Shown here: positions 6,907-55,462 of the stretch, piece by piece
Position numbering within the stretch: position 1 is the stretch's first letter
How the letters are laid out: every line of letters starts with the position of its first letter
Assembly: GCA_907163375.1 (NCBI GenBank)
Contig: CAJQUW010008610.1
Location: forward strand, 62,001-126,000
DNA: 64,000 nt
Direction: 5' to 3'
From: Prostheceraeus crozeri
Taxonomy: Eukaryota > Platyhelminthes > Polycladida > Euryleptidae
Notes under the pieces: generated by a model
Told to the model about the DNA's origin: nothing
The model's input: only the letters and a program-made list of their open reading frames with translations
The model's database searches: none
Program-made: the position numbers and the translations under genes

Positions 6907-9460
6907 GAAGTCGGAGATGTATGTTATGTCGAACGGTTATGAAGTCGGAGATGTATGATATGTCGAACGGTTATGAAGTCGGAGATGTATGTAGGCGAAC
7001 GGTTATGAAGTCGGAGATGTATGTTATGTCGAACGGTTAAGAAGTCGGAGATGTATGATATGTCGAACGGTTAAGAAGTCGGAGATGTATGATATGTCGA
7101 ACGGTTATGAAGTCGAAGATGTATGTAGGCGAACGGTTATGAAGTCGAAGATGTATGTAGGCGAACGGTTATGAAGTCGAAGATGTATGTAGGCGAACGG
7201 TTATGAAGTCGAAGATGTATGTAGGCGAACGGTTATGAAGTCGGAGATGTATGTAGGCGAACGGTTATGAAGTCGAAGATGTATGTAGGCGAACGGTTAT
7301 GAAGTCGAAGATGTATGTAGGCGAACGGTTAAGAAGTCGGAGATGTATGTAGGCGAACGGTTATGAAGTCGAAGATGTATGTTATGTCGAACGGTTATGA
7401 AGTCGAAGATGTATGTAGGCGAACGGTTATGAAGTCGAAGATGTATGTAGGCGAACGGTTATGAAGTCGAAGATGTATGTAGGCGAACAGTTATGAAGTC
7501 GAAGATGTATGTAGGCGAACGGTTATGAAGTCGGAGATGTATGTAGGCGAACGGTTATGAAGTCGGAGATGTATGTAGGCGAACGGTTATGAAGTCGAAG
7601 ATGTATGTTATGTCGAACGGTTATGAAGTCGGAGATGTATGTAGGCGAACGGTTATGAAGTCGGAGATGTATGTAGGCGAACGGTTATGAAGTCGAAGAT
7701 GTATGTTATGTCGAACGGTTATGAAGTCGGAGATGTATGTAGGCGAACGGTTATGAAGTCGAAGATGTATGTAGGCGAACGGTTATGAAGTCGAAGATGT
7801 ATGTAGGCGAACGGTTATGAAGTCGAAGATGTATGTAGGCGAACAGTTATGAAGTCGAAGATGTATGTAGGCGAACGGTTATGAAGTCGGAGATGTATGT
7901 AGGCGAACGGTTATGAAGTCGGAGATGTATGTAGGCGAACGGTTATGAAGTCGAAGATGTATGTTATGTCGAACGGTTATGAAGTCGGAGATGTATGTAG
8001 GCGAACGGTTATGAAGTCGGAGATGTATGTAGGCGAACGGTTATGAAGTCGAAGATGTATGTTATGTCGAACGGTTATGAAGTCGGAGATGTATGTAGGC
8101 GAACGGTTATGAAGTCGAAGATGTATGTAGGCGAACGGTTATGAAGTCGAAGATGTATGTAGGCGAACGGTTATGAAGTCGGAGATGTATGTAGGCGAAC
8201 GGTTATGAAGTCGAAGATGTATGTAGGCGAACGGTTATGAAGTCGGAGATGTATGTAGGCGAACGGTTATGAAGTCGAAGATGTATGTAGGCGAACGGTT
8301 ATGAAGTCGAAGATGTATGTTATGTCGAACGGTTATGAAGTCGGAGATGTATGCTATGTCGAACGGTTATGAAGTCGGAGATGTATGTAGGCGAACGGTT
8401 ATGAAGTCGGAGATGTATGTAGGCGAACGGTTATGAAGTCGGAGATGTATGTAGGCGAACGGTTATGAAGTCGAAGATGTATGTTATGTCGAACGGTTAT
8501 GAAGTCGAAGATGTATGTTATGTCGAACGGTTATGAAGTCGGAGATGTATGTACGCGAACGGTTATGAAGTCGAAGATGTATGCTATGTCGAACGGTTAT
8601 GAAGTCGGAGATGTATGTAGGCGAACGGTTATGAAGTCGGAGATGTATGTAGGCGAACGGTTATGAAGTCGGAGATGTATGTAGGTGAACGGTTATGAAG
8701 TCGAAGATGTATGTAGGCGAACGGTTATGAAGTCGAAGATGTATGTAGGCGAACGGTTATGAAGTCGGAGATGTATGTAGGCGAACGGTTATGAAGTCGA
8801 AGATGTATGTAGGCGAACGGTTATGAAGTCGAAGATGTATGTAGGCGAACGGTTATGAAGTCGGAGATGTATGTAGGCGAACGGTTATGAAGTCGAAGAT
8901 GTATGTTATGTCGAACGGTTATGAAGTCGAAGATGTATGTTATGTCGAACGGTTATGAAGTCGAAGATGTATGTAGGCGAACGGTTATGAAGTCGGAGAT
9001 GTATGTAGGCGAACGGTTATGAAGTCGAAGATGTATGTAGGCGAACGATTATGAAGTCGAAGATGTATGTTATGTCGAACGGTTATGAAGTCGGAGATGT
9101 ATGTAGGCGAACGGTTATGAAGTCGAAGATGTATGTAGGCGAACGATTATGAAGTCGAAGATGTATGTAGGCGAACGGTTATGAAGTCGGAGATGTATGT
9201 AGGCGAACGGTTATGAAGTCGAAGATGTATGTTATGTCGAACGGTTATGAAGTCGAAGATGTATGTAGGCGAACGGTTATGAAGTCGAAGATGTATGTAG
9301 GCGAACGGTTATGAAGTCGGAGATGTGTGTATAGGCGAACGGTTATGAAGTCGAAGATGTATGTAGGCGAACGGTTATGAAGTCGAAGATGTATGTAGGC
9401 GAACGGTTATGAAGTCGAAGATGTATGTAGGCGAACGGTTATGAAGTCGGAGATGTATGT
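6907..9460. repeat. 32/34-bp minisatellite with higher-order structure
   Basis: About 78 tandem units of two types differing at one site: 32 bp (GAAGTCGAAGATGTATGT then AGGCGAACGGTTAT) and 34 bp (TATGTCG replacing AGGCG). Position 8 alternates G/A (GTCGGAG or GTCGAAG). A rare GAACAG variant recurs at 7485 and 7841, 356 bp apart, which equals nine 32-bp plus two 34-bp units, so an 11-unit block was duplicated. Unit length is not a multiple of three and no long ORF crosses the array. The array stops exactly where the CCCGCGAGG element begins. Confidence 0.95.
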
Positions 9461-12965: not shown

Positions 12966-13376
12966 TTAAAATACCGTCAACTCTTTTCTTCGATTGATTT
13001 TTGGAATCAACTGTTTAATGTAACGAGCTTCAGTCAGTCTAGTGTCCAATGCATCTTTGCACTTATCAAGAATTTCAAGGTCAAAATCAGTCAAACGTTT
13101 TGGTCTACATTTCAGACAATGTTCTGCCATAGCACTCGAATCAACATTACCTTTATCTACAGCACGCTTGTGTTCATTAAAACGATGCTTAAAAGGACGC
13201 GAGGTTTGACCAATATAGAAATCTTTACAATGATGGCATGTAAATTTGTATACCAAAAACCGATCTGTACACTTCATCTTATTAGGCAAACTCTCACAAA
13301 CAAGGCAACTTTCGTGTTTTTCTACTTTTTGTTTGAATTTCAAGGCATTATATAAAGTTTTATTAGGGGAGCTCAC
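12966..13376 (-). CDS. Penelope-like element C-terminus, GIY-YIG endonuclease
   Basis: A 136-codon ORF with the C-terminal endonuclease module of Penelope-like retroelements. A Cys/His knuckle (CLVCESLPNKMKC) is followed by VYKFTCHHCKDFYIGQTSR, the divergent GIY-YIG core with Zn-binding cysteines. Then come an Arg-rich helix (FKHRFNEHKRAV), HCL, and the conserved LDTRLTEARYIKQLIPKIN segment with the catalytic Glu. The reverse transcriptase that should precede it (coordinates above 13376) is missing, so this is a 5'-truncated copy. The hammerhead-like motif lies ~75 bp past its stop. Confidence 0.85.
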   Translation of the reverse strand: MSSPNKTLYNALKFKQKVEKHESCLVCESLPNKMKCTDRFLVYKFTCHHCKDFYIGQTSRPFKHRFNEHKRAVDKGNVDSSAMAEHCLKCRPKRLTDFDLEILDKCKDALDTRLTEARYIKQLIPKINRRKELTVF

Positions 13377-14402: not shown

Positions 14403-15217
14403 AAGGCCCCTTGATACATTATCTATATCCTTCTATGTGTGATTTGATAAAGTCTGTCTTGTTCCGCTTTCAAAACCAGAGTTATGTAAAAGAAAACTCA
14501 AAGAAGTTGAAATCAATCGATGTGTCACAGAACCATTTGGCTAATGAAGATATTGAAATCGGACATGCAGCCAGAGACGCGATTGAGAAGGTCGAATCGA
14601 AATCGAAGGATGAAGTCATGAAACAGATACTGTCGTTCTACCAAACTGCATCGCAGTACTTGATCGATAAACTTCCACATGATAACAAAATACTTCGAGC
14701 CCTCCGCGTACTACATCCAAAAGAACAATCCAACAAGAAAGGATGCCGCTATATCAAAATCATAGCAGAAGCGATGCCTTTTCTCAAAGATGACGACATC
14801 GTGAAAATCATCCACGAATGGAAATTGTACGGTGAAGAAAAAGTTAAGTCAGACATTCATGAAATCCGCATTGATGAATTCTGGTCTCAGATACTAGAAC
14901 ATGAATCAGTAAGTGGAAGAAAGAAATACCCGAATCTTTCCCGTGTCGTAAAAGCAGCTCTCACATTGGCTCACAGCAATGCCGACTCAGAAAGGGGACT
15001 TTCAGTTAATAAACGATTGCTTGGTACGGATAGAACAGCGCATTCTGCAAAATCTGTAATCGGAATAAGAGCATGTAAAGACACTGACCGATCATTTGAT
15101 GGCATTACAAACGTTCCCATCACAAAAGACCTTATCAGCGTGGCGAGGGCATCTTCAAAGGTGTATCAACAGGAATTGGAGGAAGAAAGGAAAAAGGCGG
15201 AAAAACTTAAACAGGAA
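14403..15217 (+). pseudogene. hAT-like transposase C-terminal exon, interrupted
   Basis: It opens after a plausible acceptor (TTTCAAACAG|AA) and reads 269 codons from 14411 to the Polinton junction. The hAT dimerisation signature is clear: PNLSRVVKAALTLAHSNADS followed by ERGLSVNKRLL, with the conserved N-A-[DE]-S-E-R core. Downstream, VPITKDLI and a charged helix EEERKKAEKLKQE begin a coiled coil. Upstream exons with the DDE catalytic residues are absent from the 274 bp between the terminus and this exon, so the element was already non-autonomous. The Polinton entered between codons of the coiled coil. The remainder resumes at 55119. Confidence 0.8.
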
Positions 15218-15880
15218 AGTAGTAAGTAAAACTCCACTTCTGGATAGCGCAAGATGGCCGCCATCGCTGAGTCCCCCCCCTCTGGCACGGCAGAGTGTCG
15301 TGGTCGGCCGCCGTGGTGCTTCGTGTCTGAGTCCCCCCCCCCTCTGGAACGACAGAGTGTGAGACTCGGGTGAGTTGGTCCGACCGCCTGGTTGACGTGG
15401 GCGACCGCCAGGATTAGTCTTGAGGCTATAGTGTGTGATGTTTTTGGTGCAATCTGCTGAATGTTGGGTTGTAAAATGGGTTGTTTCGAGTGGAAGGAGT
15501 GGTCGGATGAGAAAACGGAGGTCGGATTCGTGTTCAGCGTGAAATTCTGCATCGGTAGGGTGAGTTTCAAGTCAATCGGTGAGAAAAAATTTTCAACATT
15601 TTTCGAAAAAACGACAGAGTTAGAATTTGGGACGTTTTGGTGTGTAGCGTCCAAACGAAGCATCGGATGAGAAAACGGAGGTCAGATTCGGATTCAGCGT
15701 GAAATTCTGCATCGGTAGGGTGAGTTTCAAGTCAATCGGAGAGAAAAAATTTTCGGCTGACGTCCCCCCCCTGGACAGCTTGCTTCCAGTGGACGGATTT
15801 TGTCGTGCGATAGCTCGTTTGAAAGCTAAGAGTGAGACAAATTCAGTGAAAGAATCGGCTTGTTCCTATCTGCCTTCGTT
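15218..15880. repeat. Polinton left terminal inverted repeat
   Basis: Inverted match to 54376-55118. It contains subrepeats of the form GAGTCCCCCCCC-TCTGGMACGRCAGAG and a second, ~163-bp-spaced duplication (GAGAAAACGGAGGTC... at 15509 and 15669). It is 80 bp shorter than the right repeat because one C-tract subrepeat unit is missing after 15357, probably lost by recombination between subrepeats. ORFs in this segment are repeat artefacts. Confidence 0.9.
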
Positions 15881-18543: not shown

Positions 18544-18885
18544 ATGGCGAAACGTAAAAGTCAAAAGTTTTCTTCAGCCATTCAAGCTCTCCGACGAATG
18601 AAAGCAAATCAGCGATACAATGCTATACGACATGCTAACGATAAATTCATTTGTGAAATTATTTCTCATGTGAGGAAGTTGAGGACGAAGAAATTAGCGC
18701 CAAAACAACGAAAGTTACTTAAGCGATATGCTACGAAATTGCGTTTCATCTCCAATCCTAAAGTTACCCTTCAAAGAAAGAGGAAAACTTTAACACAAAA
18801 GGGCGGTTTCCTTTCAGCAATACTTCCAATGATAGCTCCTGCCGTGGGCAACCTATTGGGTAATATCTTTGGCTCTAAGCGTTAA
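18544..18885 (+). CDS. Basic protein with C-terminal amphipathic/hydrophobic segment
   Basis: 113 aa, very rich in Lys/Arg (MAKRKSQKF, KKLAPKQRKLLKRY, LQRKRKTLTQK), then GG and a hydrophobic glycine-containing tail (FLSAILPMIAPAVGNLLGNI). This architecture recurs in Polintons just upstream of the ATPase and recalls adenovirus minor core or membrane-lytic peptides. A role in genome condensation or membrane disruption during entry is inference. It is followed 31 nt later by the ATPase start. Confidence 0.7.
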   Translation: MAKRKSQKFSSAIQALRRMKANQRYNAIRHANDKFICEIISHVRKLRTKKLAPKQRKLLKRYATKLRFISNPKVTLQRKRKTLTQKGGFLSAILPMIAPAVGNLLGNIFGSKR

Positions 18886-18916
18886 TTATGCAAATGTTGA
18901 ATCTCAAAGTGATAAA

Positions 18917-19534
18917 ATGGATTTCAGACTTCAATGTGATAAAGTTCTGACTGTATCAGGTCCATCTCATGCAGGTAAAACTGTTTTCACGCTGAATTTA
19001 TTGGATAAAAGAAGGGAGTTGTTTAAGGAACCTATCAATCGAGTGATTTGGTGTTATGGTATTTATCAACCGTCGCTGTTTCAGGAATTGCAAAGTCGCA
19101 ACTTTATTCGACATGAAGGAATTATTGCAGTGGATAAACTTCAGTCTAATGATGTTGTTGTATTGGATGATTTATTAAAAGAAAGTAAGAATTCAAAAGA
19201 TGTTACAGATATGTTCACTCGCGCAGCACACCATAAAAGGTGCTTTATCATCTATATCACACAAAATTTGTTTCCTGATGGAAAAGAAGCTCGTACACGA
19301 AACCTGAATACACACTATTATGCTATTTTCAAGAATCCGCGAGATAAAAGTCAATTTGAAATTTTAGCGCGACAAGTTGCACCCAGAGGATCAAAAGCCT
19401 TAATTGAAATTTTTCAAGCAGCTACTGAAAAACCATACGGTTACTTATTCATTGACTTTACGCAAGAGTGTCCGGAAGAATTTAGATTTCGAAGTGATAT
19501 TTTGAAAACTCCCATGATTATCTACAAACTATGA
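18917..19534 (+). CDS. Genome-packaging ATPase (FtsK/HerA-A32 type)
   Basis: ATG 18917 gives 205 aa; the ORF is open further upstream only through a non-ATG codon. Walker A GPSHAGKT is at residues ~15-22, and Walker B VVVLDDLL (acidic pair ~84-85) follows. YITQNLF downstream is a plausible sensor motif. Length and motif spacing match the small packaging ATPases of Polintons and related viruses, which pump DNA into capsids. The stop overlaps the next start (ATGA at 19531), consistent with a tightly coupled structural gene cluster. Confidence 0.9.
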   Translation: MDFRLQCDKVLTVSGPSHAGKTVFTLNLLDKRRELFKEPINRVIWCYGIYQPSLFQELQSRNFIRHEGIIAVDKLQSNDVVVLDDLLKESKNSKDVTDMFTRAAHHKRCFIIYITQNLFPDGKEARTRNLNTHYYAIFKNPRDKSQFEILARQVAPRGSKALIEIFQAATEKPYGYLFIDFTQECPEEFRFRSDILKTPMIIYKL

Positions 19535-20224: not shown

Positions 20225-20440
20225 ATGAAGCAGATGTGTTGCTTGCCATGTAATGAGCCGCCAGAGGTGAATGTCGTTGTCACTTGCACTTGCTGCGCCA
20301 GCTCTCATAATGAAACCCCTAAGCAATGTGAACACGATCGCAAAACCGCTAAAGCTAAATGCTGCAGTTGTTGTAAATGTAGAAAGGCAAGAAAACAAAA
20401 AGATGAGAAGGAGGAAAAAGAGTCAGCCGTCATCGACTGA
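20225..20440 (+). CDS. Cysteine-rich small protein overlapping the integrase
   Basis: 71 codons beginning 1 nt after the preceding stop. The ORF has about 15 Cys, including MCCLPC, CTCCASS and CCSCCKC, then a charged tail (KARKQKDEKEEKE). The Cys clustering resembles metallothionein-like or metal-binding peptides. The reading frame differs from the overlapping integrase N-terminal extension, and this frame is unchanged in the second copy. It could be a real small gene or an accidental product of the integrase leader. The tight spacing favours a gene. Confidence 0.4.
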   Translation: MKQMCCLPCNEPPEVNVVVTCTCCASSHNETPKQCEHDRKTAKAKCCSCCKCRKARKQKDEKEEKESAVID

Positions 20441-21491
20441 ACGTTTGAAGTCAATCTATTATGATGTAAAACATCCGGCAGGATTTGCATCTATCAAGAA
20501 ATTATCAAAAGCGAGTGGTCTTCCACAATCACAAGTGAAACGATGGTTAAAGGGTCAGGCTACCTATACACTCCACAAACAAGCGAAAAAGAAGTACCGC
20601 ACCCGCCATTATATTGTTCATGACATCGATGAACAGTGGCAAGCAGATTTGTGTGATGTTGCCTCCATTTCAAAACATAACTCGGGCAATAATTTTATTT
20701 TAACCGTCATTGATATTTTCTCGCGTTATGCGTGGGCTCAACCTTTAAAAACTAAAGAAGGGAAAGGAGTAGCAAAAGCATTCCAAACAATTTTTCGAGA
20801 AGGTCGCATTCCAAAAAGAATTCAGAGTGATCAAGGAAAAGAGTTTGAAAATCAGCATGTGACAAGATTATTTGAGAGGCATGACATTGAGTTGTTTAGT
20901 GTAAAGAGCGCTTATAAAGCTGCACTCGTTGAACGTTTTAATCGCACATTAAAAAATCGCTTGTGGCGACATTTTACTGCCAACTTGACACAAAATTGGA
21001 CAAAGGTTCTACAAGATACACTCCATGCCTACAATCACTCTATCCATCGTTCTATTGGACTCAGACCAGTAGATGTAAATGCTGACAATGTAGATAAAGT
21101 GCGCGAATCATTCCAACGTAAACGCACTCATGTGAAAAGTGATGTGAAAATTGGCGATAAAGTTCGTATCTCAAAAGTGAAAAGTGTTTTTGCTAAAGGG
21201 TACCTCCCGAATTGGACAGAGGAGGTATTTACAGTATCAAGGATTAATCAAAAAGACTCTCCGACCACCTACAAGTTGAAAGATTACGATAATGAAGAAA
21301 TTGAGGGTAGCTTTTACCGCGATGAGATTGAGGTAGTCACTGAAAGTGAAACATATTTGGTAGAGAAAATCATTCGATGTAAAAAACGGCAAGGTGAAGA
21401 ATGGTGTCTTGTTAAATGGACTGGTTATCCTTCAAGTATGAACTCTTGGATGCGTCGTGCCGACATCTTTCATCTAAGTGATCGACAGTGA
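20403..21491 (+). CDS. INT: Polinton integrase (RVE core plus chromodomain)
   Basis: 362 aa from ATG 20403; an in-frame ATG at 20271 would add 44 residues but overlaps the Cys-rich ORF. An N-terminal helical domain (LSKASGLPQSQVKRWL) precedes the rve catalytic core. Catalytic residues are visible as D in QWQADLCDV, D in IQSDQGKEFEN and E in LVERFNRTLKNRLW. The C-terminus has a chromodomain: YLVEKIIRCKKRQ, EEWCLVKWTGYPSSMNSW. The integrase inserts the element with 6-bp duplication, and the chromodomain probably guides it to chromatin. The second copy encodes the same protein. Confidence 0.95.
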   Translation: MRRRKKSQPSSTERLKSIYYDVKHPAGFASIKKLSKASGLPQSQVKRWLKGQATYTLHKQAKKKYRTRHYIVHDIDEQWQADLCDVASISKHNSGNNFILTVIDIFSRYAWAQPLKTKEGKGVAKAFQTIFREGRIPKRIQSDQGKEFENQHVTRLFERHDIELFSVKSAYKAALVERFNRTLKNRLWRHFTANLTQNWTKVLQDTLHAYNHSIHRSIGLRPVDVNADNVDKVRESFQRKRTHVKSDVKIGDKVRISKVKSVFAKGYLPNWTEEVFTVSRINQKDSPTTYKLKDYDNEEIEGSFYRDEIEVVTESETYLVEKIIRCKKRQGEEWCLVKWTGYPSSMNSWMRRADIFHLSDRQ

Positions 21492-21989: not shown

Positions 21990-23267
21990 ATGTAGTGTAA
22001 AACTTCCGGTTTTTGTTTGTTCGATCAACAAGCCATACAGACAGATATTCTTAGTTCAAGTATTGTAGATTATCATCCTCGAACAGCTGAGAATGCTGGC
22101 CCCATTGAATTTGTTATTCCTGGTGGTAGTGATGACTACATAGATTTGAGTTATGCGATGCTTGATTTGAGGTTTGGAATTCAGCAAGCAGATGGAACTG
22201 CTATTGACGATGCACATAAAGTTGGACTGAACAATTTACCATTGACTACATTACTTCGCGATGTTTCTCTAACGATTGGAGAGCAGCAGGTGGAAGGTGG
22301 TCAAAGCGATTATCCCTATAAATCATATTTCAATCATGTATCACAGTTTCATCCAGCAGCACAAAAAAGTCATATGGAAGCCATGGGATGGTACAGAGAT
22401 GAAGCAGGAAAATTTGATGTTGAAACAAACAGTGGCTTTGTAAAGCGATCTGCTATGATTAAAGATAGTAGAGTATGTCAGCTATATGGTCCGCTGAATT
22501 TAGACTTCTTTAGACAGTCAAAGTTTTTACTCTGTAATACCAGCATGCGACTCAAGCTGACATTGAATAAGCCTGAATTTGCGCTGAATGCATTTGCTAA
22601 AGTTGACAATTTTAGAATTCATGTGGAAGATATTGCACTTTACATTCGTCGAGTAGTACCGAATCCAAGTGTCATTAGAGGGCATGCTGAAGGCCTTAAC
22701 CGCCAAAATGCCATTTACCCCGTTCAGCATACAAAGCTTCTCACCTTTACAATTCCGAAAGATCAAAAGAGTTTCATGAAAGATGGCCTCTTTCCATCGG
22801 AAGCACCGAAGCTCCTCATGGTGGCAATGGTTGAAAATGATGCATTTAATGGTAATATAAAGAAGAATCCTTTCAATTTTAAACACAATCAGTTAAGTGA
22901 AATTGCTTTACGTGTAAATGGTGTGAGTCATCCTGGTCCACCCTACAAACCAGATTTTGCTTCGGATCAATTTATGCGCAGTTATGTTGATTTCATGGAT
23001 GTCTTTGGCTTTTACAATACGGATGACACCAACGGACTGACTATGAAAGAGTTTAAGAGTGGATATACTATTTATGCATTTGATTTGACTGCTGACAGCG
23101 ATATTAGTGCACCCTATCGTCAAGCGAACGTGCCTCATAATATTCGTTTGGATTTGACGTTCAAAAGAACACTACCTGAGACGATCAATGTATTAATTTA
23201 TGCAGTTTTCGATTCAAATATTGAAATTACAAAGTATCGTGACGTGATTCTTCAGTATAATCGTTAA
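21990..23267 (+). pseudogene. Probable major capsid protein, nonsense codon in copy 1
   Basis: The start codon (21990) is followed by TAG, where copy 2 has GAG, so codon 2 is a stop here. The rest (416 aa from 22017) is open. Recognisable blocks: PIEFVIPGGSDDYIDLSYAM, TTLLRDVSLTIGEQQVE, DFFRQSKFLLCNTSMRLKL and a beta-rich C-terminus (INVLIYAVFDSNIEITK). Family memory: this type is the DJR hexon-like capsid protein of Polintons/adintoviruses, widespread in invertebrate genomes as a hypothetical protein. Position between pVI-like and protease genes fits. Confidence 0.7.
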
Positions 23268-23722
23268 TGAGTTGGTTGACTGCTGACGATATTAAGACTA
23301 AAGTGCAGCGTAATGCAGACGAAGCGACGTTGAAAGCTTTCGATAATCTCTATTCACTCGATACCTTACCACCTGCAGTAAATCACTATCCCATCTTTAT
23401 TGTGCTAAACACTCATTCACAGAATTTAGGCGGTGAGCATTGGAAAGCGATCTTTATTGGAGAAGACCGACGTGGTGAACTATTTGACTCTCTTGCTCAA
23501 CCTCCAAATATACCAACACAGCAGTGGTTGAGAAAACATACGCGTCAATATCAGCGAAATGAACGCATACTACAACATCCACTTTCATCAACGTGTGGTG
23601 CTTTTGTACTGTACTTCATCTTAAGACGTTTACATGTATCTCGATTTGCATCTGTTATTCAAAACTTTTCATGTAATCCATCCTCTAATGAAAAAATGAT
23701 TTGTAAGTCTATCATGATTTGA
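23267..23722 (+). CDS. PRO: Adenain-like cysteine protease
   Basis: The start shares one base with the capsid stop (TAATG). 151 aa with the adenovirus-protease/Ulp1 triad order: H58 in GGEHWKAIFI, D74 in GELFDSLA and C110 in SSTCGAFVLYFIL. It would process capsid or core precursors during virion maturation. Near the 3' end a one-base deletion (TAAGTCTATC versus TAAGTTCTATC) changes the last residues relative to copy 2 (CKSIMI versus CKFYHDLK); the catalytic part is unaffected. AATAAA follows at the stop, convergent with the next - strand gene. Confidence 0.9.
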   Translation: MSWLTADDIKTKVQRNADEATLKAFDNLYSLDTLPPAVNHYPIFIVLNTHSQNLGGEHWKAIFIGEDRRGELFDSLAQPPNIPTQQWLRKHTRQYQRNERILQHPLSSTCGAFVLYFILRRLHVSRFASVIQNFSCNPSSNEKMICKSIMI

Positions 23723-23755: not shown

Positions 23756-24300
23756 TTATTTTACAATCCGCTGGGTACGTACATACTCAATGAGATAGTC
23801 TAGGATCATATTTGCTTGTACATGAGATTTTAGTCCAGTAATGATCACTTTACTATTATGAAAGATTGCCACATGCACAGGTAACCAACAACTAATGAGA
23901 GCTGCCGGAAAAAGTTCGGGTTCATAACACAAACTGTAACTGCTGGTACGAATCTTCAAAAATGATAGACTGTCACTCAATTGAGTAGAGATCACCATAT
24001 TGTCCACAGTCAGATTCGACATCACACACCTCTCCCTCTTCCATATCCGACGTAGTAGTCTTTGTAGCTCTAAGCGCATTGACTGCGCCGATGAATGAGA
24101 AAGGGCGCCGAGAATCTGTACAGTCCCATTTGGGAAGAGTTGAAGATTCCGTGAATTGTTCATCTTCACCACTAACATTTGAGGACGGCCCGGGTAATAC
24201 TTGCTGTTGGAAGCTGTTGGTGTAATGTTGTGAGATCGATTTTGGTGTAGAGTCTGAAGCGACGGAGAATGTTGACGATGGTGTAGTGATGGCGCTTCAT
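23756..24300 (-). CDS. TBP-like protein (TATA-binding protein core)
   Basis: The - strand ATG at 24300 opens a frame of ~180 codons, the size of a bare TBP core. Repeat 1 shows YTIVNILRRFRLYTKIDL then LFPNGTVQILGA. Repeat 2 shows MSNLTVDNMVISTQL then CYEPELFPAALI and HNSKVIITGLKS. The YEPELFP and [IV]xTG signatures are diagnostic of TBP. In this copy a one-base deletion near 24200 (in LP-NSKYY) moves the second part into the PC4-like frame; copy 2 keeps repeat 1 in frame but breaks in repeat 2. Role (inferred): directs transcription of element genes with TATA boxes. Confidence 0.85.
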
Positions 24301-24622
24301 GATGAAAGAATGAGTAAATTGAGCGATGTACCTTCCTTTTATACTTTTCCCAACTACCTTGATGAAATGTGAAGTTAGTATGAAGTTGGGAATGATAGAG
24401 TTGAATTCGCCGATTGTTGACGCGCAGCCAGATGCGATTTCCAATACGTGAATGTCTTTTCATATAGAAGTATTTCAAGTCCTTCATGATATGATGTAGA
24501 GATTGAAAATGACGATAAGATAAAGCAAACTCTCTTCTCACATTTCCAGTTGAATCTTTGAAATAGACGTTTCGATCATGATCCGTTTCAATACGTTGTA
24601 GGGAATCTAATTTCCAACTCAT
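23756..24622 (-). CDS. PC4-like ORF, fused by frameshift to TBP-like sequence
   Basis: As assembled this is one 288-aa ORF. Residues 1-~105 are a PC4-like unit (MSWKLDSLQRIETDHDRNVY, REFALSYRHFQSLHHIMKDL, GSWEKYKRKVHRSIYSFF) homologous to the gene at 24645-25001. After a Ser/His/Gln-rich linker the frame enters TBP-like sequence because of a one-base deletion that copy 2 lacks. In copy 2 the PC4 frame instead continues as an acidic, disordered-looking tail over the TBP gene. I regard the fusion as a copy-specific break, not a designed chimera. PC4 proteins bind ssDNA and coactivate Pol II. Confidence 0.55.
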   Translation of the reverse strand: MSWKLDSLQRIETDHDRNVYFKDSTGNVRREFALSYRHFQSLHHIMKDLKYFYMKRHSRIGNRIWLRVNNRRIQLYHSQLHTNFTFHQGSWEKYKRKVHRSIYSFFHHEAPSLHHRQHSPSLQTLHQNRSHNITPTASNSKYYPGRPQMLVVKMNNSRNLQLFPNGTVQILGALSHSSAQSMRLELQRLLRRIWKRERCVMSNLTVDNMVISTQLSDSLSFLKIRTSSYSLCYEPELFPAALISCWLPVHVAIFHNSKVIITGLKSHVQANMILDYLIEYVRTQRIVK

Positions 24623-24644: not shown

Positions 24645-25001
24645 TTAAGATTTGCATACTAGGGCGATGAACTCACGACGAATAAATGTCATGATGGAGC
24701 GATGTATGTATCTTCTATACTTCTCCCAATTGTATTTGCGAAATGAGAAACAGTTTGCGGAATGAGAACGGTAGATTTGAATTTCATTTCTGTAATGTTG
24801 AAGCCAAACTTGATCACCCAAGGAGATGAATCTTAATGTTTCAAAATATTCCAAATCCCTCATGATATCATTGAGGTTGACAAATTGTCGCCATGTTAAT
24901 GTAATTCCTCTTGATGTATGACCATGAAAATTTTTGAAATGTACGTTTCCATCACGATCAACTCTGATATATTGTAGAGAGTCCAAAATCCAAGTCTTCA
25001 T
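24645..25001 (-). CDS. PC4-like protein 2
   Basis: 118 aa from ATG 25001. Aligns along its length with the neighbouring PC4-like unit: LDSLQYIRVDRDGNVHFKN, RGITLTWRQFVNLNDIMRDL, ISLGDQVWLQ, NWEKYRRYIHRSIMTFI. The beta-strand/loop pattern with R-G-I-[TS]-L-T-x-x-Q-[FW] resembles the PC4/p15 transcription coactivator ssDNA-binding fold, and the second half (IQIYRS...FSFRKYNWEKY) looks like a degenerate repeat of it. Its stop is 22 nt from the start of the next - strand gene. Probable tandem duplicate. Fold assignment by eye only. Confidence 0.55.
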   Translation of the reverse strand: MKTWILDSLQYIRVDRDGNVHFKNFHGHTSRGITLTWRQFVNLNDIMRDLEYFETLRFISLGDQVWLQHYRNEIQIYRSHSANCFSFRKYNWEKYRRYIHRSIMTFIRREFIALVCKS

Positions 25002-25036
25002 GATGTTATGCAAAGTTGCAGATTAGCAATATAAAA

Positions 25037-31370: not shown

Positions 31371-31470
31371 NNNNNNNNNNNNNNNNNNNNNNNNNNNNNN
31401 NNNNNNNNNNNNNNNNNNNNNNNNNNNNNNNNNNNNNNNNNNNNNNNNNNNNNNNNNNNNNNNNNNNNNN
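31371..31470. other. Assembly gap, exactly 100 N
   Basis: A fixed-size scaffold gap. The left flank ends inside the polymerase gene at the point equal to ~47940. The right flank starts 33 bp inside the left TIR (equal to 15251). Neither break is biological in appearance. Confidence 0.98.
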
Positions 31471-36551: not shown

Positions 36552-36767
36552 ATGAAGCAGATGTGTTGCTTGCCATGTAATGAGCCGCCAGAGGTGAATG
36601 TCGTTGTCACTTGCACTTGCTGCGCCAGCTCTCATAATGAAACCCCTAAGCAATGTGAACACGATCGCAAAACCGCTAAAGCTAAATGCTGCAGTTGTTG
36701 TAAATGTAGAAAGGCAAGAAAACAAAAAGATGAGAAGGAGGAAAAAGAGTCAGCCGTCATCGACTGA
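36552..36767 (+). CDS. Cysteine-rich small protein, copy 2
   Basis: Identical 71-codon ORF, again 1 nt after the preceding stop and overlapping the integrase leader. Confidence 0.4.
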   Translation: MKQMCCLPCNEPPEVNVVVTCTCCASSHNETPKQCEHDRKTAKAKCCSCCKCRKARKQKDEKEEKESAVID

Positions 36768-37818
36768 ACGTTTGAAGTCAATCTATTATGATGTAAAACA
36801 TCCGGCAGGATTTGCATCTATCAAGAAATTATCAAAAGCGAGTGGTCTTCCACAATCACAAGTGAAACGATGGTTAAAGGGTCAGGCTACCTATACACTC
36901 CACAAACAAGCGAAAAAGAAGTACCGCACCCGCCATTATATTGTTCATGACATCGATGAACAGTGGCAAGCAGATTTGTGCGATGTTGCCTCCATTTCAA
37001 AACATAACTCGGGCAATAATTTTATTTTAACCGTCATTGATATTTTCTCGCGTTATGCGTGGGCTCAACCTTTAAAAACTAAAGAAGGGAAAGGAGTAGC
37101 AAAAGCATTCCAAACAATTTTTCGAGAAGGTCGCATTCCAAAAAGAATTCAGAGTGATCAAGGAAAAGAGTTTGAAAATCAGCATGTGACAAGATTATTT
37201 GAGAGGCATGACATTGAGTTGTTTAGTGTAAAGAGCGCTTATAAAGCTGCACTCGTTGAACGTTTTAATCGCACATTAAAAAATCGCTTGTGGCGACATT
37301 TTACTGCCAACTTGACACAAAATTGGACAAAGGTTCTACAAGATACACTCCATGCCTACAATCACTCTATCCATCGTTCTATTGGACTCAGACCAGTAGA
37401 TGTAAATGCTGACAATGTAGATAAAGTGCGCGAATCATTCCAACGTAAACGCACTCATGTGAAAAGTGATGTGAAAATTGGCGATAAAGTTCGTATCTCA
37501 AAAGTGAAAAGTGTTTTTGCTAAAGGGTACCTCCCGAATTGGACAGAGGAGGTATTTACAGTATCAAGGATTAATCAAAAAGACTCTCCGACCACCTACA
37601 AGTTGAAAGATTACGATAATGAAGAAATTGAGGGTAGCTTTTACCGCGATGAGATTGAGGTAGTCACTGAAAGTGAAACATATTTGGTAGAGAAAATCAT
37701 TCGATGTAAAAAACGGCAAGGTGAAGAATGGTGTCTTGTTAAATGGACTGGTTATCCTTCAAGTATGAACTCTTGGATGCGTCGTGCCGACATCTTTCAT
37801 CTAAGTGATCGACAGTGA
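36730..37818 (+). CDS. INT: Polinton integrase, copy 2
   Basis: Same protein as copy 1, with DDE residues and chromodomain intact. One silent change near 36981 (TGCGAT for TGTGAT) shows the copies are separately derived sequences. Alternative upstream ATG at 36598. Confidence 0.95.
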   Translation: MRRRKKSQPSSTERLKSIYYDVKHPAGFASIKKLSKASGLPQSQVKRWLKGQATYTLHKQAKKKYRTRHYIVHDIDEQWQADLCDVASISKHNSGNNFILTVIDIFSRYAWAQPLKTKEGKGVAKAFQTIFREGRIPKRIQSDQGKEFENQHVTRLFERHDIELFSVKSAYKAALVERFNRTLKNRLWRHFTANLTQNWTKVLQDTLHAYNHSIHRSIGLRPVDVNADNVDKVRESFQRKRTHVKSDVKIGDKVRISKVKSVFAKGYLPNWTEEVFTVSRINQKDSPTTYKLKDYDNEEIEGSFYRDEIEVVTESETYLVEKIIRCKKRQGEEWCLVKWTGYPSSMNSWMRRADIFHLSDRQ

Positions 37819-38317: not shown

Positions 38318-39595
38318 ATGGAGTGTAAAACTTCCGGTTTTTGTTTGTTCGATCAACAAGCCATACAGACAGATATTCTTAGTTCAAGTATTGTAGATTA
38401 TCATCCTCGAACAGCTGAGAATGCTGGCCCCATTGAATTTGTTATTCCTGGTGGTAGTGATGACTACATAGATTTGAGTTATGCGATGCTTGATTTGAGG
38501 TTTAGAATTCAGCAAGCAGATGGAACTGCTATTGACGATGCACATAAAGTTGGACTGAACAATTTACCATTGACTACATTACTTCGCGATGTTTCTCTAA
38601 CGATTGGAGAGCAGCAGGTGGAAGGTGGTCAAAGCGATTATCCCTATAAATCATATTTCAATCATGTATCACAGTTTCATCCAGCAGCACAAAAAAGTCA
38701 TATGGAAGCCATGGGATGGTACAGAGATGAAGCAGGAAAATTTGATGTTGAAACAAACAGTGGCTTTGTAAAGCGATCTGCTATGATTAAAGATAGTAGA
38801 GTATGTCAGCTATATGGTCCGCTGAATTTAGACTTCTTTAGACAGTCAAAGTTTTTACTCTGTAATACCAGCATGCGACTCAAGCTGACATTGAATAAGC
38901 CTGAATTTGCGCTGAATGCATTTGCTAAAGTTGACAATTTTAGAATTCATGTGGAAGATATTGCACTTTACATTCGTCGAGTAGTACCGAATCCAAGTGT
39001 CATTAGAGGGCATGCTGAAGGCCTTAACCGCCAAAATGCCATTTACCCCGTTCAGCATACAAAGCTTCTCACCTTTACAATTCCGAAAGATCAAAAGAGT
39101 TTCATGAAAGATGGCCTCTTTCCATCGGAAGCACCGAAGCTCCTCATGGTGGCAATGGTTGAAAATGATGCATTTAATGGTAATATAAAGAAGAATCCTT
39201 TCAATTTTAAACACAATCAGTTAAGTGAAATTGCTTTACGTGTAAATGGTGTGAGTCATCCTGGTCCACCCTACAAACCAGATTTTGCTTCGGATCAATT
39301 TATGCGCAGTTATGTTGATTTTATGGATGTCTTTGGCTTTTACAATACGGATGACACCAACGGACTGACTATGAAAGAGTTTAAGAGTGGATATACTATT
39401 TATGCATTTGATTTGACTGCTGACAGCGATATTAGTGCACCCTATCGTCAAGCGAACGTGCCTCATAATATTCGTTTGGATTTGACGTTCAAAAGAACAC
39501 TACCTGAGACGATCAATGTATTAATTTATGCAGTCTTCGATTCAAATATTGAAATTACAAAGTATCGTGACGTGATTCTTCAGTATAATCGTTAA
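38318..39595 (+). CDS. Probable major capsid protein, copy 2, intact
   Basis: 425 aa from ATG 38318 (MECKTSGFCLFDQQ). Codon 2 is GAG, so the premature stop of copy 1 is absent. Otherwise nearly identical (RFRIQQ for RFGIQQ). Length is compatible with a compact double jelly-roll protein. The stop TAA shares its last base with the protease ATG. Confidence 0.7.
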   Translation: MECKTSGFCLFDQQAIQTDILSSSIVDYHPRTAENAGPIEFVIPGGSDDYIDLSYAMLDLRFRIQQADGTAIDDAHKVGLNNLPLTTLLRDVSLTIGEQQVEGGQSDYPYKSYFNHVSQFHPAAQKSHMEAMGWYRDEAGKFDVETNSGFVKRSAMIKDSRVCQLYGPLNLDFFRQSKFLLCNTSMRLKLTLNKPEFALNAFAKVDNFRIHVEDIALYIRRVVPNPSVIRGHAEGLNRQNAIYPVQHTKLLTFTIPKDQKSFMKDGLFPSEAPKLLMVAMVENDAFNGNIKKNPFNFKHNQLSEIALRVNGVSHPGPPYKPDFASDQFMRSYVDFMDVFGFYNTDDTNGLTMKEFKSGYTIYAFDLTADSDISAPYRQANVPHNIRLDLTFKRTLPETINVLIYAVFDSNIEITKYRDVILQYNR

Positions 39596-40056
39596 TGAGT
39601 TGGTTGACTGCTGACGATATTAAGACTAAAGTGCAGCGTAATGCAGACGAAGCGACGTTGAAAGCTTTCGATAATGTCTATTCACTCGATACCTTACCAC
39701 CTGCAGTAAATCACTATCCCATCTTTATTGTGCTAAACACTCATTCACAGAATTTAGGCGGTGAGCATTGGAAAGCGATCTTTATTGGAGAAGACCGACG
39801 TGGTGAACTATTTGACTCTCTTGCTCAACCTCCAAATATACCAACACAGCAGTGGTTGAGAAAACATACGCGTCAATATCAGCGAAATGAACGCATACTA
39901 CAACATCCACTTTCATCAACGTGTGGTGCTTTTGTACTGTACTTCATCTTAAAACGTTTACATGTATCTCGATTTGCATCTGTTATTCAAAACTTTTCAT
40001 GTAATCCATCCTCTAATGAAAAAATGATTTGTAAGTTCTATCATGATTTGAAATAA
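39595..40056 (+). CDS. PRO: Adenain-like cysteine protease, copy 2
   Basis: 153 aa with the H/D/C triad (GEHWKA, LFDSLA, STCGAF) and a C-terminus CKFYHDLK that probably represents the true end. AATAAA lies directly after the stop. Confidence 0.9.
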   Translation: MSWLTADDIKTKVQRNADEATLKAFDNVYSLDTLPPAVNHYPIFIVLNTHSQNLGGEHWKAIFIGEDRRGELFDSLAQPPNIPTQQWLRKHTRQYQRNERILQHPLSSTCGAFVLYFILKRLHVSRFASVIQNFSCNPSSNEKMICKFYHDLK

Positions 40057-40083: not shown

Positions 40084-40631
40084 TTATTTTACAATCCGCT
40101 GGGTACGTACATACTCAATGAGATAGTCTAGGATCATATTTGCTTGTACATGAGATTTTAGTCCAGTAATGATCACTTTACTATTATGAAAGATTGCCAC
40201 ATGCACAGGTAAACCAACAACTAATGAGAGCTGCAGGAAAAAGTTCGGGTTCATAAACACAAACTGTAACTGCTGGTACGAATCTTCAAAAATGATAGAC
40301 TGTCACTCAATTGAGTAGAGATCACCATATTGTCCACAGTCAGATTCGACATCACACACCTCTCCCTCTTCCATATCCGACGTAGTAGTCTTTGTAGCTC
40401 TAAGCGCATTGACTGCGCCGATGAATGAGAAAGGGCGCCGAGAATCTGTACAGTCCCATTTGGGAAGAGTTGAAGATTCCGTGAATTGTTCATCTTCACC
40501 ACTAACATTTGAGGACGGCCCGGGTAATACTTGCTGTTTGGAAGCTGTTGGTGTAATGTTGTGAGATCGATTTTGGTGTAGAGTCTGAAGCGACGGAGAA
40601 TGTTGACGATGGTGTAGCGATGGCGCTTCAT
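40084..40631 (-). pseudogene. TBP-like protein, copy 2, frame-broken in repeat 2
   Basis: From ATG 40631 the frame runs uninterrupted through repeat 1 (HRYTIVNILRRF, IDLTTLHQQLPNSKYYPG, LFPNGTVQILGA) and into repeat 2 (NLTVDNMVISTQL). Repeat 1 is therefore a proper in-frame TBP half here. An extra A near 40257 (CATAAACACAA versus CATAACACAA) ends it before YEPELFP, and a second extra A lies near 40212. Copy 1 has the complementary state. Confidence 0.8.
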
Positions 40632-40953
40632 GATGAAAGAATGAGTAAATTGAGCGATGTACCTTCCTTTTATACTTTTCCCAACTACCTTGATGAAATG
40701 TGAAGTTAGTATGAAGTTGGGAATGATAGAGTTGAATTCGCCGATTGTTGACGCGCAGCCAGATGCGATTTCCAATACGTGAATGTCTTTTCATATAGAA
40801 GTATTTCAAGTCCTTCATGATATGATGTAGAGATTGAAAATGACGATAAGATAAAGCAAACTCTCTTCTCACATTTCCAGTTGAATCTTTGAAATAGACG
40901 TTTCGATCATGATCCGTTTCAATACGTTGTAGGGAATCTAATTTCCAACTCAT
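40303..40953 (-). CDS. PC4-like protein 1, copy 2, with overprinted acidic tail
   Basis: 216 aa. The PC4-like unit is as in copy 1. The frame then stays open for ~110 codons over the TBP-like gene in the other frame, giving a Ser/Thr/Gln-rich linker and a strongly acidic end (TTSDMEEGEVCDVESD). A structured protein in one frame and a disordered acidic tail in the other is typical of viral overprinting; acidic tails are also typical of activation domains. Both readings are inference. Confidence 0.5.
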   Translation of the reverse strand: MSWKLDSLQRIETDHDRNVYFKDSTGNVRREFALSYRHFQSLHHIMKDLKYFYMKRHSRIGNRIWLRVNNRRIQLYHSQLHTNFTFHQGSWEKYKRKVHRSIYSFFHHEAPSLHHRQHSPSLQTLHQNRSHNITPTASKQQVLPGPSSNVSGEDEQFTESSTLPKWDCTDSRRPFSFIGAVNALRATKTTTSDMEEGEVCDVESDCGQYGDLYSIE

Positions 40954-40975: not shown

Positions 40976-41336
40976 TTAAGATTTGCATAGTAGGGCGATG
41001 AACTCACGACGAATAAATGTCATGATGGAGCGATGTATGTATCTTCTATACTTCTCCCAATTGTATTTGCGAAATGAGAAACAGTTTGCGGAATGAGAAT
41101 GGTAGATTTGAATTTCATTTCTGTAATGTTGAAGCCAAACTTGATCACCCAAGGAGATGAATCTTAATGTTTCAAAATATTCCAAATCCCTCATGATATC
41201 ATTGAGGTTGACAAATTGTCGCCATGTTAATGTAATTAATTCCTCTTGATGTATGACCATGAGAATTTTTGAAATGTACGTTTCCATCACGATCAACTCT
41301 GATATATTGTAGAGAGTCCAAAATCCAAGTCTTCAT
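40976..41336 (-). pseudogene. PC4-like protein 2, copy 2, 4-bp insertion
   Basis: ATG 41336 as in copy 1, but an extra AATT (GTAATTAATTCC versus GTAATTCC, near 41234) shifts the frame in the PC4-like core. The remaining 3' part (LTWRQFVNLNDIMRDL onward) is intact. Confidence 0.6.
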
Positions 41337-44628: not shown

Positions 44629-47600
44629 ATGTCAATACATCTCCTGAATGTGGTAGCGTGAGTTTTATTCTTTTGGGTGGAGGTATGTTTGTGTCAGGAT
44701 GTCCATGTGGAAGAGATGTGTTATGTCCTATCCAACACCTCTTATCCTCCCATGCTGAAAGTGCTCGTTTCTTGAACGTGTACGTTTTCACAGTATGAAC
44801 TTGAGATTTTAAGATTGTCATATTGACAAACGTTATAGTTTTATTTTTATAGGCCTTCTTATAGGACCGATGTTTCATTTTATGAACAATGGATTTTGAT
44901 ATACCTTTAGCACGCTTAATACTATCTGCACATTCTTTTAGTTTCATGGAATACATTTTAGGACGGAGGAGAATCATTTCATCTATTTCCTTTCCTGCTG
45001 TTTCATCCTTAAAACAACCAAGTTTGGCTTTATTCTGTATGGAATAGAGTGGATGAGTGGGATTGTAGTTAGATGTGTCGAAATATTTTTCTAATGACTT
45101 ACCTACTTCATTAAAATTTAAATCTTTTTGAGTGGTAATTCCTAAAAAGAAACTATCTGTATCACCACCCAGCAAGCGAACCTCTTTTACGAGAGGGCAT
45201 GGTTTTAATATTTTGTAGAAGAGTTGATACATTTCAAGCTTGGAATAATCTAAAACGGCTTGCCCAATATAGATGGGTTTGCACAACTCAACTTCTGATT
45301 TAATCATTTTAACACCTACAAGATCCTCATCGATGATGTCTCTATCAATGAAAAGAGGTGATGAGGTCAATTTGTGATATTTTTGTTCATCAACGACTAG
45401 TTTGTAATTCATACGTTTTCTAACATCCTCCATGGTCTTTCCGAATAGACTGTTATTCTTATATTTATAAAAATCCTTTTCAAAATTATTTTGGGCGAGT
45501 GCACGTTTTTGACTGTTACTATCTATGTAGGGTTTGAGGAAGCTTTCTGTCTAAATTTGATAATGCGGTGAACTGACTTTAGAAGCATGCCCATTTCTAA
45601 ATAGAATTTTAATATGCAGAAGTGTACGAGATAATTTTTCTTATCATATTGGGTGAGTAAAAGTTTGCGGCATGGTTTGTACCTTGGCTGTCCACACTCT
45701 GTTAAGTTATTATGAAATTGTGACATGAATGGTGAAAACATATCTTCAGTCACTTCACCAGATTCAGGTGCGAGTGGGAAATCAGCAGTTTTATTTTTAA
45801 TGCTATTTGGATAAATCAAATCCACTTCAAAATAATATCCCCAATCACCTTCATCTGGAATCTTCAGTATGTTTGAAGGGTTGGAGTAATACTCAAGCTC
45901 ATCTTGATTTAACCAACTAAACTCGGAATGAGGTAGTGGTTTAGACAGTGAACTGCCATATAAATTATTTTGGTCATAGTACTTTAGGTGGATATGATCA
46001 TCACCTACTGTTTCAGATTTTATATGATGTTTATTTACAAATGTGAGACCACCGCGTATTCCGCGCTCAAATATATTATACATCTCCGGGTCTTGTAAGA
46101 GATGAATGGTCTCACCAGTCATTTTAAAGGCTGATTTAAAGGACATGGCGGGTAGACTGACAAAGTGGACAGGATCTAATTTGTCTTCTTCTAATGCCAC
46201 TCGTCGAAACTCCTGAAAGACATCAGCCAGCAAAATGACATCTAATTCTAAGTAAGCGATCATATAATCGCCAAACGTTTTACAATCAAATTTTAACCAT
46301 GCCTCTTGAGCATGTTCATAGTCCTCTACTGGACAATCTTCACCCGTCAAATCGTTTTTGAATTTGTCAATGGAAGGAAGGGTTGTTTCATTTAGTTTAG
46401 ACATTGAGCTAAAATACGCATAAGGAAAGACTCCTTTGCGAGTGATTATTTCATCCGTTAAGTTTGGATAGTGTTTCTTCAAAGTTTGACTATGGGGAAG
46501 AAACTTGAGATTACGAACGAGAGAAGCTAGTGACGCTGACATGAATTGAAATGAATCTAAAAATTTTATTTCGAAGAAGACTGTCTTATTTTCTTTAGTT
46601 TTATCTACTGGTACTTTTGCTGTCATTGCCATGAATTTTTCTCTCGTTTGTGCTATTACATTAAACTGCCACGATTTCATCTGGCTCAACCCTCCTTTTA
46701 TGAGCATATGACTGTCATAGCCCTTAAAGTTATGAAAAATGACGGGTAGTACACGACGTCTCAACCTAAGTGAAAAGTTACATTTGGAGCAGAGTGCGTT
46801 TCTAAATTTACCAGTGATGTGATCATGATCACGCACTTTCTTAATTTTATCGTCATCAAACGTTTTATGACATTTAGGACAGGATGTGCAACTTTCAAAT
46901 TTTTGTTTGTCTTCATCTGACATATGTAGTGACTTACGCTGCAATTGGGAATCATATGATTGTTGAAATTTAGCAGCTTTATCGAGAAATTCTAGAAATT
47001 TTGAAATGCAATCTTCACCTTGCCAAGTATGCATTTTGTTTTGTCTATTCCTAAAGTGGTCATGCCATACTTCATAGCAGGATATGGCTGCTGCTTGTGG
47101 ATGATATCATCAATGTAGCATTCTATGTCTGCGTAAATGACACGCAGGGGACTTAATTCGTCACCATTATCCCTATGTGAAAATATTTTATCTTTGGGCA
47201 TGCGTTCCATTTGTAATTTACCTCGCTTGCACCATTCATAGTGAGTTTCAAATTTATCTTTACTCCAAAAAGGAGCGCATACAAAATGTTCACCTCTTTT
47301 AGAGTGCCCCAAGTGAGTGTACAAGCGAGAGATTTTGGGAATACCACAGTAGTGCCATTCCTCGCTATCATCTTGTTTTACTAATAAGAGGTTGACTACA
47401 CGTTCATAACAAGTTGAACGTGAATTATAGCGGGCACCCTTCAACCCCTTCTCCCACACGTGAACGACAATTTTAATCTTATTATGTTTTTTCGAACGTT
47501 TCTACATCTTTGATTTTCATGTTGTTACTATCACAACCTTCAAAGTCTAGTTCATCCTCCCACTGTCTATAGCTATAGGTATGATTTCGATTCGCGTTGA

Positions 47601-48077: not shown

Positions 48078-48584
48078 CTAAATTATTGTGTGAAACATTA
48101 ATGAGGGAGATGGTAGAGGTACCGTTGGTGTAGTGATCATTGCATGCGTGTGTTGAAGTCTGTGCGAAGATCGCTGAAAGTGACTATCAAAAGAAAGAGG
48201 GCACAAATCGCAAGGAAAGGAGATGTCATCGTCAGAATCAACTTCACCTCCGGAGATTGACGCCGCTTTGCGTTGACACACACGTTGTTTGATGTGTCGA
48301 AGGAGACTGTGCTTCCTTGTAAACATATGTCCGCAGTCGGCACATTCCCACTCGTTGCCATGTCGCGACAGTCCTGAGCTGGAACTCACATCACCTGAAA
48401 GAGAAATCATTCTATCATCTCTGTTCAAGTCTCAGTGTAGTGTTACAACCTACCTTGACTCAATAACTCTAAACTTTCCTCGAGAAGAGAGGGCGTTGGT
48501 GATGAAGTTGATGCCTGAAATTGAGGAAGATGCTATTAGTCACACGTTTGAGGGAGATGAGAGAGGAAATCTTTAACTTACCAT
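48078..48584 (-). CDS. Spliced zinc-finger protein
   Basis: Exon 1 is the ATG alone (48582-48584, followed by GTAAGT). Introns are 48515-48581 (67 bp) and 48395-48453 (59 bp); exon 2 is 48454-48514 and exon 3 48078-48394. Phases agree, giving M-A-S-T-S-S-P...LLSQ-G-D-V-S. Finger 1 is C2HC (WECADCGHMFTRKHSLLRH...C); finger 2 is C2H2 (FPCDLCPLSFDSHFQRSSHR, LQHTH). Probably a DNA-binding regulator. The start-codon exon and leader match gene 1 at the other end of the element. Confidence 0.75.
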
Positions 48585-54375: not shown

Positions 54376-55118
54376 AACGAAGACAGATAGGAACAAGTCG
54401 ATTCTTTCACTGAATTTGTCTCACTCTTAGCTTTCAAACGAGCTATCGCACGACAAAATCCGTCCACTGGAAGCAAGCTGTCCAGGGGGGGGGACGTCAG
54501 CCGAAAATTTTTTCTCTCCGATTGACTTGAAACTCACCCTACCGATGCAGAATTTCACGCTGAATCCGAATCTGACCTCCGTTTTCTCATCCGATGCTTC
54601 GTTTGGACGCTACACACCAAAACGTCCCAAATTCTAACTCTGTCGTTTTTCGAAAAATGTTGAAAATTTTTTCTCACCGATTGACTTGAAACTCACCCTA
54701 CCGATGCAGAATTTCACGCTGAACACGAATCCGACCTCCGTTTTCTCATCCGACCACTCCTTCCACTCGAAACAACCCATTTTACAACCCAACATTCAGC
54801 AGATTGCACCAAAAACATCACACACTATAGCCTCAAGACTAATCCTGGCGGTCGCCCACGTCAACCAGGCGGTCGGACCAACTCACCCGAGTCTCACACT
54901 CTGTCGTTCCAGAGGGGGGGAGTCAGCGAACATGTTGTGAACGTGGACCCACCTGGCCGGCACACCACGACAGACCACAACCTCTGTCGTTCCAGAGGGG
55001 GGGACTCAGACACGAAGCACCACGGCGGCCGACCACGACACTCTGCCGTGCCAGAGGGGGGGGACTCAGCGATGGCGGCCATCTTGCGCTATCCAGAAGT
55101 GGAGTTTTACTTACTACT
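54376..55118. repeat. Polinton right terminal inverted repeat
   Basis: 743 bp, inverse of 15218-15880 plus the ~80-bp subrepeat missing there. It carries three AGAGGGGGGG-GACTCAG tracts near 54910, 54995 and 55055. It ends TTACTTACTACT at 55118, directly before CAGGAA. Confidence 0.95.
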
Positions 55119-55462
55119 CAGGAAAAAGAAAGAACGCTAAGAGAAAGAAATTCAAGCAGAAAAGGAACACAATGAAAAAATAGAAAAAATGGACGCGCAA
55201 ACATATGCCTTATTGCGAAAGACGAAGAAAACATTAACGTTGAAACGTCGAGAGCCAATCTTCTATTAAGGGATGCACAAACCCGTCTCGATGAAAGCAT
55301 AAAAAAGAATGATATGGATGGCATCAGTATAGCATCAGATCTTTTGCGATTGGCAGAAGAAAAAATCGAAACATCCGCAAAGAAGCAACTTGAATTACAG
55401 AATAAAAAGCGGCAGCTCATGACAACTTACCACGAAATGACAATAAAGAAAAAAAGACTGTA
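55119..55462 (+). pseudogene. hAT-like transposase tail after Polinton insertion
   Basis: Begins with the second CAGGAA and continues the charged coiled coil of the ORF that stops at 15217. Three frames contribute: AAGAAAGAACGC..., then EKEIQAEKEHNEKIEKMDA, then ANLLLRDAQTRLDESIKKND, ISIASDLLRLAEEK and a TAA at ~55460. Frame changes show decay either before or after the insertion. No catalytic residues are expected in this part. Confidence 0.65.

Follow-up and report, generated by a model that had tools for sequence, protein, structure and literature searches.

The window analysed here is a stretch of 64,000 nucleotides from the polyclad flatworm Prostheceraeus crozeri (contig CAJQUW010008610.1, positions 62,001 to 126,000 of the forward strand), and it holds a Polinton, a virus-like mobile element of the kind proposed as ancestor of many eukaryotic DNA viruses, in which a gene for a TATA-binding protein (TBP) stands in a row with two genes of a PUR-like family. 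The row lies on the minus strand between the protease gene (23267-23722) and a gene at 25016 and reads, from right to left, PUR-like A, PUR-like B and TBP. The interior of the element appears twice in the window, and the TBP gene is found in both copies:

23756..24300, minus strand: TBP gene, copy 1, placed by PF00352, motif positions and frames; the frame changes inside lobe 1
40084..40631, minus strand: TBP gene, copy 2, placed by PF00352 on the open reading frame (ORF) 40251-40775 and by motif positions; the frame changes inside lobe 2, and the low end is taken from the copy-1 offset

The coordinates of copy 1 in the original prediction proved exact, with an ATG at 24300 and a stop at 23756. 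The ORF of copy 1 matches the TBP family PF00352 in two stretches (E 3.4e-13, 49.7 bits) and that of copy 2 with E 1.6e-11 and 44.3 bits, both above the cut-off of 22.9 bits, and in a PDB sequence search each copy matched 35 distinct sequences, all of them TBPs or TBP fusions. The NCBIfam TBP models match far below their curated cut-offs (best E 6.8e-19, 68 bits against 181). The predicted structure of the gene product is a two-lobed TBP saddle, with 18-26% identity to cellular TBP in structural alignment, in agreement with the identity first proposed. Because the TBP frame of copy 1 changes inside lobe 1, PUR-like B and TBP are accidentally joined there in one 288-amino-acid (aa) ORF (23756-24622), whose start lies in PUR-like B and whose later part runs in the TBP frame. 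By its sequence, 23756-24300 on the minus strand is a TBP gene, and it belongs to the Polinton.

The assignment of the gene to the element, already made in the original prediction, is borne out across the host genome (2.05 Gb, 14,165 contigs). When this was searched with PF00352 and the best 150 of 10,982 candidates were scored, all 150 lay above the cut-off. The host's own genes account for four of these rows: TBP exons on contig C9306 (host TBP is L007 and L009) and, on C3829, another gene (L008), which we take from its motifs to be TRF2/TBPL1-like and which suggests that the host is an animal. At least 146 rows are not the host's own, with a stop inside the match in 8, and 20 of them, hand-picked across the list, were examined with about 5 kb on either side and the window proteins as queries. 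All 20 places are Polinton-type in TBP sequence and 19 adjoin element genes: an integrase, a capsid-like gene and the convergent protease stand beside TBP at 11, and a homologue of the right-arm polymerase-like gene at 8 others (weak at L024, with 24% identity and E 2e-8), while L027 has neither set nearby. The places form at least three groups. The window's own comprises 7, with TBP 75-81% identical to the best of four query relatives; a second, of 4 places, has the same gene order as the window and TBP at 39-43%; in the third, of 9 places, TBP (41-50%) lies closer to the polymerase-like gene, L027 being placed here by identity. Neighbourhood and identity together show TBP to be carried by at least three Polinton lineages of the host genome, so that the gene sought in other Polintons was found. 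An open frame spans the whole match at 15 of the 20 places (L029 and L030 among them, with a partial match), which means that intact TBP copies exist.

The family is also present in public databases, where a profile search returned 233 proteins at E <=0.001; the 120 listed are all marked PF00352 and measure 157-250 aa. Forty were aligned, with 34-68% identity to the relative P0003 and PF00352 matched in 40/40, and open TBP frames occur among the public relatives as they do elsewhere in the host genome. IMG/VR gave no TBP relative, nor, in a search for close relatives only, any relative of the capsid-like gene, the ATPase or the integrase; an ATPase pattern retrieved 6 IMG/VR contigs, all of them lacking both window-like genes and the TBP profile. 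No TBP relative was found in GTDB contigs or, with one relative as query, in phage records.

The relation to the host's own TBP was examined in a tree of 37 rows: 9 genome places (from the 20), 20 relatives (from the 40 aligned), the two window copies and 6 cellular sequences. These last, which include the host TBP exon and the TRF2-like gene, split from the other 31 with support 100/100 along a long branch, and the division between cellular and Polinton proteins recurred in a tree of 47 rows. At the level of aligned sequences, these trees show the Polinton TBP to be separate from the host's own. It had been foreseen that the gene might turn out to be a host TBP pseudogene captured by one copy, and the frameshifts in both window copies would fit such an origin; the chance of it is nonetheless negligible and the reading was rejected, since host TBP and the TRF2-like gene stand apart in the tree, the non-host rows number at least 146 (20 of 20 examined Polinton-type, 19 beside element genes) and there are 233 public relatives. 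A significant TBP match is present, the gene occurs outside this copy as well, and it is no host pseudogene.

Residues of the DNA face and of the TFIIB contacts were counted over the 120 public relatives, with positions anchored on the E. cuniculi chain and numbered by what we take to be the yeast TBP scheme. In lobe 2, N159, V161, E188, F190, F207 and T215 are kept in 120/120, the TFIIB-contact acid E186 in 118 (Asp in the other two), and L205 is replaced by Ala in 119. In lobe 1, N69 is present in 106 of the 107 sequences that reach that position and F116 in all 120. F99 has become Pro in 117/120 and Gln, Thr or Leu in the other three, never Phe; Gln stands for both L114 and V122 in 120/120, giving a motif Q-x-F-x2-G-x2-Q found in every sequence, and T124 is replaced by Leu (113) or Phe (7). 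The set of DNA-inserting Phe residues of canonical TATA-binding TBP (F99, F116, F190, F207) is incomplete through the loss of F99; the Asn pair N69/N159 and, in lobe 2, the base-contacting Asn and Thr and the acidic TFIIB contacts are kept. Judged by motif, 13 of the 20 genome copies carry P, Q, F and Q in lobe 1, and 17 fit the lobe-2 pattern. The second group has Met at T124, and L020, L027, L029, L030 and L031 deviate. The predicted DNA saddle is half canonical (lobe 2) and half rebuilt in one constant way (lobe 1).

Since lobe 1 is rebuilt in this constant way and residues that contact TATA are lost, the protein probably recognises something other than a classical TATA box. In line with this, TATAWA occurs 3 times against 2.1 expected in 16 stretches of 200 bp upstream of element genes, some of whose start sites are approximate (that of TBP is 3 bases off); it is not enriched, and the TATA boxes that had been cited in favour of a self-supplied promoter factor lend no support. 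ATGCAAA was the top upstream 7-mer, present in 5 of the 16 stretches against 0.7 expected; having been picked from many, it is not put forward as a motif. No TFIIB-like ORF was seen among the scanned ORFs of the element, where broken ORFs could hide one; together with the retained TFIIB-contact acids, this points to the host's TFIIB.

Directly upstream of TBP, the two PUR-like genes, which formed no part of the original prediction, are placed as follows:

24645..25013, minus strand: PUR-like gene A, copy 1; ORF listed from a TTG, with an in-frame ATG at 25001
24305..24622, minus strand: PUR-like gene B, copy 1; end approximate, overlapping the TBP start in another frame
40976..41296, minus strand: PUR-like gene A, copy 2; from ORF and alignment, first part out of frame
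40636..40953, minus strand: PUR-like gene B, copy 2; from ORF 40303-40953 and motif positions, end approximate

PUR-like B is a paralogue of PUR-like A (43% identity), and the family has a predicted Pur-alpha-like fold; the protein is predicted to bind single-stranded DNA. By sequence, the upstream gene had no Pfam match and no match to the PDB chains of Pur-alpha, MRP1-2, Whirly or PC4; PC4, the first guess at its identity, was thus not recovered by either search. Nudix rows (E 0.06 and 0.1, under the cut-off) were set aside as weak, as was an adiponectin row (E 2.3e-6) built from three weak copies of one piece. PUR-like A has 6 public relatives, of up to 97% identity, and in the host genome at least 150 stop-free matches (the best 150 of 13,999 candidates), 141 of them with equal score; so many equal scores suggest that the element is very abundant and young in this genome. 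At places outside the window lineage, no PUR-like match was found on the reverse strand or on the downstream side of TBP.

The element that carries these genes has outer ends AGTAGT (starting at 15218) and ACTACT (ending at 55118), is flanked on both sides by a 6-bp duplication, CAGGAA, and is inserted within a hAT-like ORF. Its further features are:

15212..15217: 6-bp flanking repeat CAGGAA, left
55119..55124: 6-bp flanking repeat CAGGAA, right
15218..15339, plus strand: left terminal inverted repeat, outermost exact arm, starting AGTAGT
54997..55118, minus strand: right terminal inverted repeat, outermost exact arm, ending ACTACT
20271..21491 (copy 2: 36598-37818), plus strand: integrase with chromodomain (rve E 1.3e-10, Chromo E 6.4e-7, both above cut-off)
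23267..23722 (copy 2: 39595-40056), plus strand: cysteine protease, convergent with TBP (Peptidase_C48 E 0.001, 19.4 bits against a cut-off of 20.7)
18869..19534, plus strand: packaging-ATPase-like gene, weak and below cut-off (Pox_A32 14.9 against 22.8 bits, E 0.019)
38318..39595, plus strand: capsid-like gene, copy 2; homologues adjoin TBP at 11 of the 20 genome places
45523..47034, minus strand: piece of the right-arm polymerase-like gene, copy 2, by position and a DTDS motif in the copy-1 right arm

The capsid-like gene, for which Pfam and PDB searches gave no match, is a putative capsid gene, named from its position and from the jelly-roll capsid proteins usual in such elements, and the right-arm pieces, candidates for the protein-primed DNA polymerase B of Polintons, had no polymerase match in Pfam or PDB. 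Near the N-terminus of the polymerase-like gene at 45523-47034 (minus strand) lies an Endonuclease_7 domain (E 6.2e-7, above cut-off), the sole Pfam domain there, and the right part of the element also holds a C2H2 zinc-finger gene at 48078-48428 (minus strand, E 8.7e-7). A gap of 100 N at 31371-31470, within 15218-55118, separates the two near-identical internal copies, which are 97.7-98.0% identical, with 150 mismatches and 122 gap events across 16,141 columns, and share a single outer end pair with its 6-bp duplication. Possibly the assembly has written a single locus out twice; lying on either side of a gap, about 98% identical and enclosed by one shared pair of ends, the two copies are not independent evidence.

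Remains of other mobile elements lie at 58877-59952 (minus), 12966-13376 (minus) and 14411-15229 (plus), and comprise DDE_Tnp_1_7 transposase pieces (presumably piggyBac-type), a GIY-YIG piece and the hAT-like ORF that was the target of the Polinton. Outside the element, an array of repeats of about 32 bp with strong GC skew extends from about 6930 to 9000. Rfam and tRNA scans of the window returned nothing, and PHROGs nothing useful.

The reading preferred here, to which a probability of about 0.6 is given, is that the TBP of the Polinton binds the element's own promoters and recruits host TFIIB and RNA polymerase II. Lobe 2 would bend the promoter and dock host TFIIB, the rebuilt lobe 1 would read a non-TATA half-site, and the complex could in this way select element promoters while escaping the regulators of host TBP; the Pur-alpha-like protein of the upstream gene might bind the melted strand and aid promoter opening, so that TBP and its PUR-like partner would steer host RNA polymerase to element genes. 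On a broader scale, the chances seem evenly balanced that Polintons run a promoter code of their own, in which an element of about 16-24 kb without an RNA polymerase would rely on a two-part module (a TBP with rebuilt lobe 1 and a Pur-alpha-like strand binder), a non-TATA signal and borrowed host TFIIB and polymerase II. Several observations weigh against this picture or stand beside it. Two TBP repeats had been predicted in one gene in both window copies, and the domain does exceed its cut-off in both, but neither copy has the TBP gene as a single open frame. By alignment, the Pro at F99 is missing in 3 of the 20 genome places (L027, L029, L030), which have broken frames or poor alignment. 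L020 lacks a PUR-like ORF (E 0.096); of the 13 places that lie outside the window lineage, 12 have one, with the gene tail making up much of the match. In a shuffle test on 22 relatives, the other reading frame beat 60/60 shuffles in two (P0106, P0113) and 58/60 in P0104, with scores below those of the true frame, in which P0106 fails (2/60 shuffles as good). In a separate test P0042 fails (31/100; leader of 12 residues).

Other roles can be imagined for the same protein. It might resemble ORF24 of herpesviruses in serving one class of element genes, for example late capsid genes, by recruiting polymerase II without host TFIIB. According to passages in PMC12529657, ORF24 mimics TBP and has a DNA face of greater polarity, and the Gln changes of lobe 1 are polar too; the same passages describe it as lacking the TFIIB-contact acids (printed there as E184 and E188, which are 186 and 188 in the present numbering) and as bearing further domains. 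The Polinton TBP keeps the acids, and relatives of 157-250 aa (n=120) leave no room for a large extra domain, which makes such a role unlikely. Somewhat less probable still is an action on the host, in which a partial TBP would sequester TFIIB or host promoters and dampen host transcription or defence: a protein with its TFIIB side kept and half of its DNA face altered would suit this, yet the constancy of the new lobe-1 residues in 120 relatives speaks for selected DNA contacts, and the gene goes together with a partner predicted to bind nucleic acids. It is just as doubtful that the TBP and its PUR-like partners act in replication or packaging rather than transcription, for instance by binding and bending DNA at the termini. 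In favour of this, no promoter motif emerged, and proteins of the Pur-alpha fold bind single strands, a need of replication; such a role would nevertheless leave unexplained why the TFIIB-contact acids are kept in at least 118/120 relatives.

Compared with cellular TBP (the TFIID subunit, or archaeal TBP), the Polinton protein shares PF00352, the two lobes, the predicted saddle and the lobe-2 contacts with DNA and TFIIB, and differs in the rebuilt DNA face of lobe 1 and in being carried by a mobile element. TRF2/TBPL1-like animal paralogues, one of which is found in the host, are likewise TBP relatives with altered DNA-contact residues, but sit on the cellular side of the tree. The TBPs of giant DNA viruses (Nucleocytoviricota) are also virus-encoded and supply the nearest named rows in a viral structure library; they vary at the TFIIB acids and are mostly accompanied by a TFIIB of their own, according to parts of PMC7221094, whereas the Polinton TBP keeps these acids and no TFIIB was seen in the element. 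Herpesvirus ORF24, a viral TBP, resembles it in having polar substitutions on the DNA face. As for Polintons/Mavericks and adintoviruses, the integrase with chromodomain, the protease, the AGT-repeat ends and the 6-bp duplication are shared, and the TBP and PUR-like genes are the difference, being absent from the gene lists searched. In the literature on these elements, none of the titles and abstract openings examined names TBP as a Polinton gene, the gene lists of the founding Polinton and adintovirus papers lying outside that search, and the term TATA is absent from the main texts of PMC11071308, PMC9683012, PMC11071296, PMC10120064, PMC4028283, PMC10675110, PMC8097293, PMC12721341 and PMC3671162. 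In sections of PMC10675990, the only elements said to have TATA-binding proteins are of putative mirusvirus origin, and a portion of PMC11410667 adds four families of large dsDNA viruses with TBPs to three already known.

So far, TBPs of their own have been known from large DNA viruses that bring much transcription machinery with them, and a TBP mimic from herpesviruses. If Polintons do run a promoter code of their own, such an element would be the smallest known mobile element with a general transcription factor of its own, long kept in several Polinton lineages. The presence of a TBP in Polintons would imply that promoter selectivity is possible without a polymerase of one's own, and would explain how an integrated element can read its genes apart from host control. 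The two small proteins, with a constantly altered DNA face, would also offer a test case for how the specificity of TBP can be rewired.
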